Made by a program: the position numbers and the translations under genes
Shown here: piece after piece, positions 5,786 to 34,697 of the stretch
Position numbering within the stretch: position 1 is the first letter of the stretch
Layout: every line of letters begins with the position of its first letter
Source of the DNA: a virus
Direction: 5' to 3' (one strand)
Virus record (IMG/VR): IMGVR_UViG_3300036770_002095
Coordinates: 1-37,991 of that record
DNA: 37,991 nucleotides
The notes under the pieces: generated by a model
Database searches by the model: none
The model's input: only the letters and a program-made list of their open reading frames with translations
What the model was told of the DNA's origin: nothing

Positions 5786-6676
5786 CTAGGCGGCCAGTTC
5801 TTCTTCTACTGGCTTGGCCATTGTGAAATAGTCTAAGGCTTGTTGCGCTTTAGCGGCGGCCGTTAGTATGGCTTTTTTGTCGTTGCGTAGCACCTTAAGC
5901 CAGTTTGCAATGTAGGCGACATGATTAGACTGCATTTGGCCATTAATTCCAGTATGGGCACAGAGCATGGCGGCACCAAGCTCGGCCACTAATTCTTCAA
6001 AAGCATAGGCTTCATCCCCGAAGCGCTTAGCCTTGCTAAAGTCACGATCAAGCCTAGATTTATGCCCCGTAGCATGCACGCTTTCATGCAATAAAGTCGC
6101 ATGGTATCCATCAGCATCATTAAAGGCGGCCATGGGCGGCATGCTAATAAAATCCCGGCTAGGGCTATAAAACGCCGAATTACCGCCATGCGTTAACCCA
6201 TTCTCTAGCCCTAGTTTGTCGACTAAGGCCATAACTGCCGGGTTAGCGTCAAAGTCAGGTTTTGGTGGCTCGGGTATAGCCGGGATGACTAAATCGTCGC
6301 ATTGTTCGACATTGAAAACGTAATAATGCTTAATGAAAGCATAGGCACTGGTCACGGTTTCCCCGGCACTATCCTTTGATTCTTTTTTGTTTACTGACCA
6401 GTAGACTACCGGCAAGCCCTTGGAACCCGCCTTTACGCTAGCCCCTAGACTTTGCGCTTGTTTGAATGTAAGCCAGTAGGGGCTTGAGTATGACCCTTGC
6501 GCCATTGAAAGCCAAAAATGGTTAATTCCACGGTAAAGGGTGCCTGATACCGGGTTATATGGCATGCCGTGGCCCGGGGTTGATCTCAGGTTTTTCCACG
6601 GTTTAACCCATGGCGTGCTGCCCTTTTCAAGTTCGGCAATGATTCGATCTGTAATGGTTTGTGCAATGTCTAGCAT
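5786..6676 (-). CDS. ardC: ArdC-like antirestriction protein (ssDNA-binding domain + zincin)
   Basis: A 296-residue protein with the two-domain layout of ArdC. Residues 1-125 form the N-terminal ssDNA-binding domain (STPWVKPW, YNPVSGTLYRGINHFWL, SPYWLTFKQAQSLGASVK and a VYWS...YAFIKHYYVFNVEQC end). Residues 140-290 form the metallopeptidase-like domain with HESVH (His197, Glu198, His201) and downstream FEELVAELGAA (Glu227/228), the zincin signature. ArdC proteins protect incoming single-stranded DNA and inhibit restriction systems (family knowledge). The gene heads a four-gene leftward unit with its own terminator, away from the recombination operon, which fits an early anti-defence role. SD AAGGGGC; leader motifs at 6698-6704 and 6721-6729. 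Confidence 0.9.
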   Translation of the reverse strand: MLDIAQTITDRIIAELEKGSTPWVKPWKNLRSTPGHGMPYNPVSGTLYRGINHFWLSMAQGSYSSPYWLTFKQAQSLGASVKAGSKGLPVVYWSVNKKESKDSAGETVTSAYAFIKHYYVFNVEQCDDLVIPAIPEPPKPDFDANPAVMALVDKLGLENGLTHGGNSAFYSPSRDFISMPPMAAFNDADGYHATLLHESVHATGHKSRLDRDFSKAKRFGDEAYAFEELVAELGAAMLCAHTGINGQMQSNHVAYIANWLKVLRNDKKAILTAAAKAQQALDYFTMAKPVEEELAA

Positions 6677-22540: not shown

Positions 22541-22774
22541 GTGGCCTTACAAGATCTTCTTAATCTTATTGGTGGCATTGGTTTAACGGCATTGGGCTGG
22601 TTTGCCCGTGAGTTATGGACTGCCGTTAAGGAGCTTAAAACCGATCTTGCTAAGTTGCGAGAAGAGTTGCCCAAGACTTACGCCCAAAGAGATGACGTAA
22701 AAGATGACTTTAAAGAAGTCAAACAGATGCTTACGGACATTTATCAAGAGCTAAGGAAAAAGGCAGACAAATGA
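22541..22774 (+). CDS. Small membrane-anchored coiled-coil protein (77 aa)
   Basis: GTG start with GGAG upstream. Residues 5-24 (DLLNLIGGIGLTALGWFARE) form a hydrophobic helix, then a long heptad coil (TAVKELKTDLAKLREELP and KEVKQMLTDIYQELRKK). This layout resembles BhlA-like or spanin-like small membrane proteins, but no family is certain. It overlaps the next gene by four bases. Confidence 0.5.
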   Translation: MALQDLLNLIGGIGLTALGWFARELWTAVKELKTDLAKLREELPKTYAQRDDVKDDFKEVKQMLTDIYQELRKKADK

Positions 22775-32448: not shown

Positions 32449-32650
32449 GGTGTACGCTTCTACTATGAACACGGGCAGCGCCGGTAAGCCCATTCGTCAA
32501 GCCTCCGTTGCCGATACCTACGGCATGGGCAAACCCACCCGTACCAACCCCGTCGGCGGCTTTATGCCTATGATGTGCTTTGGCGGTGGCGATCAGAAAA
32601 AGTCGCCCACCACCCCGGGCGTGGTCGGTTTTAAGAAGAGGTTTTACTAA
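32423..32650 (+). CDS. Small basic/Gly-rich protein (75 aa)
   Basis: Starts at ATG 32423 with SD AAAGGAAAAA. MKVSIKKTEVYASTMNTGSA, then GGFMPMMCFGGGDQKKSPTT. Disordered with a single Cys. It overlaps the end of 32221-32448, and its stop overlaps the next ATG (TAATGG). Unknown. Confidence 0.5.
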   Translation: MKVSIKKTEVYASTMNTGSAGKPIRQASVADTYGMGKPTRTNPVGGFMPMMCFGGGDQKKSPTTPGVVGFKKRFY

Positions 32651-33000
32651 TGGCCAACAACATTGCCTTTCAGCCGATGGGCAACTGCGTGGTAGCCTTT
32701 GCCTCCACTGGAAACGTGGCGGGTAATGTTGCTGTTATCACTGCCGTTAGCCCGGTCAATCAATACTTTGTCTTCAACCCAGACAAAAATGACCCTGTCT
32801 TTGTTGCATACGGTGAGACAGATAGCGTCACGCCTGTTATTCCTACTGATGGCAACAGTGCGGCAGTAGTCGCAATTGCCCCATACACGGAAAAGGTATT
32901 CACTGGCCCACAAGTCAGTGCAACAAAACATGTGTATGTTGCGATCATTGCCCCGCACAACAATGCTCGGCTGTACGTCACACCGGGAGAGGGGTTGTAA
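32650..33000 (+). CDS. Beta-rich virion protein, paralog of 21436-21780
   Basis: 116 residues ending LYVTPGEGL. The match to the fibre-region gene in length, ending and strand spacing suggests duplication. Beta strands NQYFVFNPDKNDPVFVAYG and TKHVYVAIIAPHN are visible. Possibly a decoration or capping protein; unknown. Confidence 0.55.
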   Translation: MANNIAFQPMGNCVVAFASTGNVAGNVAVITAVSPVNQYFVFNPDKNDPVFVAYGETDSVTPVIPTDGNSAAVVAIAPYTEKVFTGPQVSATKHVYVAIIAPHNNARLYVTPGEGL

Positions 33001-33044
33001 CATTCGGTTGTTAAGCTAGGGGCTTGGTTTAATGGGGGCAAATC

Positions 33045-33566
33045 ATCGACCCAATAACGATACTAGCTGCGTGCAGTGCAGTATGGAGTGGCATAAAGCA
33101 AGCCTCCGAGTTCGCTCAGGAGGCTGAAGGCGTTTGGAGTCAGCTAAGTAAATACGTTGGGCTGGCCGATCAACTAGAGCAGCACATCACAGAGGCAAAG
33201 AACAAGCCTCAAAAACCCAAACTGTTTGGCAAGCTAGAGTTCGGCAACGACACTCAAGAAGCCTTCAATGCGTTTGAGGCAGAGCATAAGCTAGCCGAGA
33301 TGGAGCGTGAGATTAGGCACGAGTTCCTCTACGGAGCCTTCTGCAACCTTGAGGGTGGCTTTGGTGGCATGGATGGCTACCGCAAGTTCTTAGAGATGCG
33401 GCGCAAGATCAGGGCTGACCGCATTAAGATGAAACAAGATCAGGAAAACATGCAGGCCGAGTTCTGGGCCAAGGTGCAGCTTTATGGCGGCGGCAGTGCC
33501 ATTGTGGTTATTGGCCTGCTGCTCATGTATGTGGCAATTGACTTTATCTTTAGGTACGCAAAATGA
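33045..33566 (+). CDS. Conserved phage protein with C-terminal membrane helix; apparent ATC start
   Basis: From an in-frame stop at 33030-33032, the frame is open to 33566. The first residues read (I)DPITILAACSAVWSGIK, and the MDPITI-type start is common in a family of phage proteins (recollection), so ATC at 33045 is the probable initiator; no ATG, GTG or TTG occurs before ATG 33300. GGGGG (33034-33038) lies six bases upstream. About 173 residues: an N-terminal amphipathic part, a charged coil (HKLAEMEREIRHEFL) and a final TM helix (AIVVIGLLLMYVAIDFIF). It overlaps the next gene (ATGA). A one-base indel in the G-run would instead connect it with ATG 33032. Confidence 0.7.
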   Translation: MDPITILAACSAVWSGIKQASEFAQEAEGVWSQLSKYVGLADQLEQHITEAKNKPQKPKLFGKLEFGNDTQEAFNAFEAEHKLAEMEREIRHEFLYGAFCNLEGGFGGMDGYRKFLEMRRKIRADRIKMKQDQENMQAEFWAKVQLYGGGSAIVVIGLLLMYVAIDFIFRYAK

Positions 33567-33838
33567 ACGAACGCTGGTCTACGGAAGAGATCGAGGTGCG
33601 GGTGTGGGCAATCATTGTCCTGTCACTAACCTCGATTCTGCTGCTCTCCACCTTTGGAATCATCATGGGCGTCATGTTTGTCGAGCATGACATGCAGTCC
33701 ATAGCGCCGATTGACGAGGCTTTCTTAGCCATACTGCGAGACATTATGCTGCTCTGTATCGGAGCCGTAGGTGGCATCGTGGGACGTAAAGGAGCCTATG
33801 CTGCCGCTAACGCACTGAAGAAGGAGGGCGAGCAATGA
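33563..33838 (+). CDS. Two-helix membrane protein, holin-like
   Basis: A 91-residue protein beginning MNERWSTEEIEVRVWAIIVL. Two TM helices (VWAIIVLSLTSILLLSTFGI and FLAILRDIMLLCIGAVGGIV), basic tail. Proteins of this pattern accompany lysis genes in related phages (recollection). With 33835-34236 it could form a holin/antiholin pair. It starts by ATGA overlap. Confidence 0.65.
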   Translation: MNERWSTEEIEVRVWAIIVLSLTSILLLSTFGIIMGVMFVEHDMQSIAPIDEAFLAILRDIMLLCIGAVGGIVGRKGAYAAANALKKEGEQ

Positions 33839-34236
33839 TTCCTTTGGCTGCCATTATGAGTATCGGGGAAAAGGTGCTGGACAAGGTTCTACCCGACCCA
33901 GAGGCTAAGAACAAGGCGATGGCCGAGCTTGCCAAGATACAGGCTGAGGGTAGGCTTGCAGAGCTTAATGCTGACAACATCGAGGCGCAAGAATTAACTA
34001 AGCGTGCCGAGGCCGACATGAGGTCGGATAGCTGGTTGAGCAAGAACATTAGGCCTATGACGCTGATCTTCATACTGTTGATCTACACTGTGTTTGGCTT
34101 TATGAGCGCATGGGACTTGGAAGTCAACGGCCCCTACGTTGAGCTACTTGGGCAGTGGGGCATGTTAATCATGTCCTTCTACTTTGGTGGCCGTACCCTC
34201 GAAAAGATTATGAACATGAAAGGCAAGGACAAATGA
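33835..34236 (+). CDS. Holin of the GTA three-TM type
   Basis: 133 residues. N-terminal helix (AAIMSIGEKVLDKVL) and charged coil (KIQAEGRLAELNADN), then SKNIRPMTLIFILLIYTVFG (TM), WGMLIMSFYFGGRTLEKIM with the FGGRTLEK motif. This C-terminal block is the signature of the 'holin of three TMs for gene-transfer release' family. It overlaps the endolysin by four bases (ATGA). It would make holes allowing endolysin to reach the cell wall. Confidence 0.85.
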   Translation: MIPLAAIMSIGEKVLDKVLPDPEAKNKAMAELAKIQAEGRLAELNADNIEAQELTKRAEADMRSDSWLSKNIRPMTLIFILLIYTVFGFMSAWDLEVNGPYVELLGQWGMLIMSFYFGGRTLEKIMNMKGKDK

Positions 34237-34697
34237 ACCTAACCAAGAACTTTACTCTAGCCGAGATGACTAAATCCGAGACGGCATTGCGTTTTAACAT
34301 GGGCAACCACCCGGGCGATACCGAGCTTGAGAACCTTAAGATTCTTTGCGAGAAAGTATTGCAACCCGTAAGAGATCATTACGGTAAAGGCGTGAAGGTC
34401 AACAGTGGTTATAGGCACCCGCTGGTCAATGCCAAGGTGGGTGGCAGCCCCCGATCAGACCATTGCAAGGGCATGGCAGCCGACATAGAAATACCGGGTG
34501 TGGCCAATGCTGACCTAGCCGAGTGGATTAGGGATAACCTTAAGTTCACGCAGTTGATCTTGGAGTTTTATACCCCCGGCATACCTGATAGCGGGTGGGT
34601 GCATGTGTCTTACAACTCTTACGATCTTAAGATGCAGACCTTGACGGCAATGACGAAGGACGGTAAAACACAGTATGAAGACGGATTGGTGGCGTAA
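34233..34697 (+). CDS. Endolysin, peptidase M15-type
   Basis: 154 residues, start ATG at 34233 overlapping the holin stop. Zinc ligands His77 and Asp84 (RSDHCKGMAADIE) and His124 (WVHVSY), plus the earlier VNSGYRHP, form the M15A peptidase signature. It cleaves peptide bonds of peptidoglycan. There is no signal peptide and no cell wall-binding domain, so it is a single-domain enzyme of a Gram-negative-infecting phage, reached by holin action. Confidence 0.92.
   Translation: MNLTKNFTLAEMTKSETALRFNMGNHPGDTELENLKILCEKVLQPVRDHYGKGVKVNSGYRHPLVNAKVGGSPRSDHCKGMAADIEIPGVANADLAEWIRDNLKFTQLILEFYTPGIPDSGWVHVSYNSYDLKMQTLTAMTKDGKTQYEDGLVA

Follow-up and report, generated by a model that had tools for sequence, protein, structure and literature searches.

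Comparison of relatives points to AUC as the probable start codon of a phage lysis-cassette gene

The locus and its reading frame

Where does translation begin in a phage gene that opens with 255 bases lacking any in-frame ATG, GTG or TTG? The window, that is, the whole stretch of 37,991 nucleotides of the virus record IMGVR_UViG_3300036770_002095 that was analysed, contains such a gene on its plus strand. The frame is open from 33033 to 33566, between an in-frame TAA (33030-33032) and a TGA (33564-33566). Its first ATG is at 33300, 255 bases downstream of an ATC codon at 33045-33047, and no GTG or TTG occurs earlier in the frame either. A run of five G (33034-33038) precedes this ATC at a distance of 6 nt (caaatc). 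An earlier note on this DNA had pointed out these features, and its coordinates were all confirmed, as was its remark that the loss of one base from the G run would bring an out-of-frame ATG at 33032-33034 into the frame. Two details had been missed: the G of that ATG belongs to the G5 run itself, and the codon at 33042-33044 is also ATC, giving two adjacent ATC codons. Non-canonical initiation, slippage and sequencing error had all been left as options. The first is strongly supported by the comparisons described here, which speak against the other two. We propose, with a probability of about 0.85, that the gene at 33045-33566, encoding a predicted tail-anchored membrane protein of 173 aa, is translated from AUC by the ordinary fMet-tRNA, positioned by the G5 run acting as Shine-Dalgarno sequence. 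Comparison among relatives establishes where the start lies, that ATC or ATT occupies this place in three contexts unrelated to one another, and that the N-terminal codons are under selection.

Start codons among the relatives

Scans of IMG/VR for the family yielded 18 and then 40 relatives with 61-100% identity. In every one of them the similarity begins at the codon matching 33045 and continues as D-P-[I/V]-T (D-P-T-T in L039), so the earlier reading of DPIT... as a family beginning stands. The sequence 5' of the start is unrelated between groups of relatives. To avoid bias, a start-independent census was also made by searching IMG/VR with the DNA pattern of residues 2-14, the start codon being omitted. 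In the 52 contigs found, D-P-[I/V]-T is preceded by ATG (25), GTG (14), ATC (10), TTG (2) or ATT (1), and by no other codon. A codon inside a frame would not be restricted in this way, and the column is therefore the start codon. Residues D2, P3, T5, L7, A8 and A12 are invariant across the ATC, ATG and GTG members. In the frame of the window, no ATG, GTG or TTG lies at or near this homology-defined start.

The conserved start position is accompanied by selection on the codons that follow it. For codons 2-85, dN/dS is 0.088 between the window and L005, 0.043 between L025 and L028 and 0.090 between L030 and L033, in these ATC pairs lower than for the rest of the gene. Such strong purifying selection indicates that the N-terminus is translated.

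A scan of bacterial genomes for relatives gave a single truncated copy, which is insufficient to name a host. It lies at 4001-4508 of L097, within an 83.8-kb contig of a Chitinophagales MAG, and has an ATG start and a frame that ends after 27 codons. The similarity continues past the stop, so either the copy is broken or the assembly is in error here.

Upstream contexts of the ATC and ATT starts

The ATC and ATT starts sit behind three non-homologous upstream genes. Context A comprises the window, its identical copies L001 and L002, and L005, an independent phage that is 82% identical to the window in this stretch and likewise has ATC with a G5 run. It is marked by an upstream gene of 116 aa (32650-33000, plus strand), which occurs in this position in no members other than window/L001 and L005, all with ATC, at 80% identity. 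Context B comprises L025, L028, L029, L030, L033, L096 and L124, with the junction ...gacaagTGAGGccatcATCGA or close variants of it, whose TGA is the stop codon of the upstream gene. Context C consists of L018, with an ATT start two bases 3' of the stop of the upstream gene. Close forms of the three upstream genes were seen only with ATC or ATT; for the context B gene, remote homologues stand in front of ATG members, where the junction is different. That one gene should have ATC or ATT behind three upstream genes with no relation to one another argues for real biology and not for a sequencing error or a slip of frame.

The tree rejects a single ancestor for all ATC gene bodies (AU test, p about 2e-58), and in it the bodies of the ATC members are spread over more than one clade. 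This fits an exchange of gene bodies behind fixed upstream contexts. Because the bodies may recombine, origins of the ATC/ATT start were counted by upstream context (at least three) and not by changes on the tree under parsimony (five).

Several further observations were made around these junctions. A gene of the window at 22541-22774, about 10 kb before the ATC gene and ending in ...QELRKKADK*, resembles the context B upstream gene by eye. At L028:2990-3022 and the other context B loci, an out-of-frame GTG 11 nt before the ATC opens a short ORF, whose stop in all members seen is the TAG that arises where codons Leu7 and Ala8 meet (CTA/TTA GCG); the ORF could be a leader or a product of chance. 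The upstream motif GGGGCTTGGTT, common to the window and L005, was considered as a repeated signal and rejected, having two matches in the window at no more than one mismatch, which is no more than chance.

Alternative starts

Initiation one codon upstream, at the ATC of 33042-33044, would give a product beginning M-I-D-P. The pair ATC ATC is present in all of context A and in most context B contigs, and the distant protein of Limnohabitans phage DC31 has ATG ATT GAT, i.e. M-I-D-P, at the matching place (L042:2495-2510, where a GTG stands just before the ATG, which is the annotated start of the CDS). An Ile codon before D-P can therefore be internal in distant relatives. However, only 3 nt (context A) or 2 nt (context B) separate the upstream codon from the Shine-Dalgarno sequence. 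In context B this codon also varies, with ACC in L030/L111 (the same contig) and GTC in L124; the codon after it remains ATC throughout. Over the first 50 codons of the five distinct context B sequences, the same codon is kept at only 8 of the 36 conserved residues; the start stays ATC in all five, and third-base variation is seen at each of the three other conserved Ile codons. The relatives thus single out 33045, and a start at 33042 appears improbable.

Alternatively, translation could begin at the ATG of 33032-33034 and enter the gene by a +1 shift at the G run, or through a slipped transcript, to give MGQIIDPIT.... One G fewer would suffice to put this ATG in frame, in L005 the same relative frame is occupied by a GTG at -16, and AGGGG stands 7-9 nt before both the ATG of the window and the GTG of L005. 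Nevertheless, the ATG of the window reads ATA in L005, and contexts B and C have ATC or ATT at the same codon with neither a start in that frame nor a G5 run. A conserved N-terminal extension of this kind occurs in no relative, and five G are few for a site of slippage. A conserved upstream start combined with a slippery site in the other frame was not found. In context A, the ATG or GTG that lies out of frame close to the gene leaves a small opening for a frameshift, which we consider quite improbable.

The earlier note had named peptides starting at ATG 33300 as one outcome that would count against the longer gene. This ATG is indeed the first canonical start in frame and, as the sole start, would give an 88-aa protein with the upstream part untranslated. 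Against it stand the purifying selection that ATC pairs show on codons 2-85, the invariant residues shared by ATC, ATG and GTG members, and the shifting place of the first canonical start in other ATC members (L005 at codon 13, L028 at codon 40); this reading is highly improbable. The least probable alternative, an error of sequencing or assembly in the G run that masks a normal ATG start, would need only one base difference but is very unlikely, since contigs from two other samples (3300034073_000278 and 3300035670_001407) match the window at 6519 of 6519 bases, G5 included, and the independent L005 and context B likewise start with ATC.

Shine-Dalgarno pairing and local RNA

The evidence from the relatives favours AUC 33045 as the start, and its surroundings are consistent with this assignment. 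The G5 run of the window (GGGGG against CCUCC, with one G-U pair) has a calculated RNA duplex energy of -8.4 kcal/mol with the 16S tail. The ATC and ATT members of contexts A, B and C all carry a Shine-Dalgarno sequence at a suitable spacing, which is 6 nt in the window and 5 nt in L005 and context B. The mean pairing energy is about -8.2 kcal/mol for ATC/ATT members, compared to -5.1 for ATG and -6.6 for GTG members. The difference between ATC/ATT members and the rest (p = 0.02) is suggestive only, because the sequences are related and the independent contexts few. A stronger Shine-Dalgarno sequence in ATC/ATT members would agree with the AUU and AUA starts of S. aureus (PMC13009471).

RNA folding around the start is not unusual in the window, L005 or L028 (z of -0.4, -1.1 and -0.2, respectively). 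Around the ATT start of L018 (1070-1164) the RNA folds somewhat better than its shuffles (z -2.1), unlike the ATC members. A scan for promoters and terminators around the ATC gene gave none above shuffles.

The gene product and the lysis cassette

The product is predicted to be helical, with one C-terminal hydrophobic segment (residues 151-169) likely to span the membrane. It had no confident match to a known family in the Pfam/PHROG comparison of the region. The structure model is of low confidence (pLDDT 56) and proved too poor for a fold search. The gene is followed, on the same strand and with 4-base overlaps, by three others. The first, overlapping the ATC gene by ATGA, encodes a membrane protein of 91 aa (33563-33838; PHROG 25359, E 2e-9) with a hydrophobic segment at 17-35. 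A holin gene of the GTA_holin_3TM type (33835-34236; Pfam PF11351, E 4e-8, above the cut-off; PHROG 3427 holin, E 5e-23) and an endolysin gene of the peptidase M15 type (34233-34697; Pfam PF08291, E 1e-17; PHROG 894 endolysin, E 3e-42) come next. With holin and endolysin genes adjacent, this is a phage lysis cassette. Similar arrangements were read by eye from the ORFs of L005, L028, L124, L033 and L018; a holin-like gene comes directly after the ATC/ATT gene in L005 and L018, and in L028 the last gene is a different one, of lysozyme-like type.

Elsewhere in the window, the rightward genes start with ATG, GTG or TTG. The use of ATC is therefore specific to this gene, and a generally relaxed choice of starts in this phage was rejected. 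A search of the window and the loci gave no tRNA gene that might serve as an unusual initiator.

Proposed mode of initiation and its significance

Considering these observations together, we propose, as the simplest account, that the ordinary fMet-tRNA initiates on AUC 33045 with the help of the G5 Shine-Dalgarno sequence six bases upstream, and that AUC would be decoded as fMet. One point against an AUC start is that, in systems of the E. coli type, IF3 strongly disfavours AUC read by the CAU anticodon. Related third-base preferences in initiation have been described (PMC10158994). Initiation on AUC would be weak and limited by IF3, which may keep the membrane protein at a low dose. The product would be a mostly helical 173-aa protein with one C-terminal membrane segment, encoded by the first gene of the lysis cassette, and a low dose of such a protein could be useful to the phage. 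The start codon itself is probably a property of the junction to the upstream gene, with the module taking ATG, GTG, TTG, ATC or ATT according to the gene in front of it. It is also conceivable, although we regard this as doubtful, that AUC is a selected throttle: a weak, IF3-sensitive start would tie the level of a lysis-timing protein to the translation state of the host, and recombination at the start codon would retune it by swapping the five codons.

The presence of AUC or AUU in about a fifth of the sampled family members offers a natural test bed for the circumstances under which weak starts are favoured. Gene callers limited to NTG starts would shorten these proteins at different places, namely at codon 86 in the window, 13 in L005 and 40 in L028, and families and start statistics built from phage annotation are therefore biased against ATC and ATT starts. 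In the latter two phages such a caller would start at internal GTGs (L005:3037 and L028:3118), with the loss of 12 and 39 residues, respectively.

Comparison with known systems

In a limited search of the literature, no description of recurrent AUC use within one phage gene family was found. Switches to such codons appear to be rare: among 61,358 ancestral AUG starts in closely related prokaryote genomes, one switch to AUU and none to AUC was reported (PMC5622118). More distant proteins whose match begins at the same residue, with 25-31% identity, occur in Roseobacter phages CRP-2, CRP-9 and CRP-4, Caudoviricetes MW202496 (M-D-P) and Limnohabitans phage DC31 (M-I-D-P). Those of their starts that were inspected are ATG or GTG, unlike the ATC of the window.

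Isolated predictions have been made for other phages, such as an AUU start for orf28 of Streptococcus thermophilus phage TP-J34, where sequencing errors were excluded by resequencing (PMC3952083), and a GTC start for ORF35 of Ralstonia phage RsoM1USA (PMC6389784). These are single cases, whereas here 11 of 52 family members are involved, in three unrelated upstream contexts.

The closest parallels are bacterial. The gene infC, encoding IF3, starts with ATT in E. coli, with ATC itself in Streptomyces (PMC5472188) and with AUA in S. aureus (PMC13009471), codons that, like the proposed start of the phage gene, differ from AUG in the third base. Together with sigR (PMC5472188), it provides a model of a low-efficiency start under IF3 restraint that may apply to the phage gene. 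However, infC encodes the very factor that discriminates against its own codon and so forms a feedback, of which the phage membrane-protein gene gives no sign. In S. aureus, cvfC1 (AUU) and ccpN (AUA) have extended Shine-Dalgarno motifs and lowered initiation (PMC13009471), and resemble the phage gene in combining conserved third-base variants of AUG with strong Shine-Dalgarno sequences. They are chromosomal genes whose initiation was mapped by experiment, in contrast to the phage genes described here, which mainly use AUC and were recognised by comparison. With ATC in infC and isolated AUU and GTC predictions in phages already known, what appears to be new is the recurrent, gene-specific use of AUC in one lysis-cassette family.
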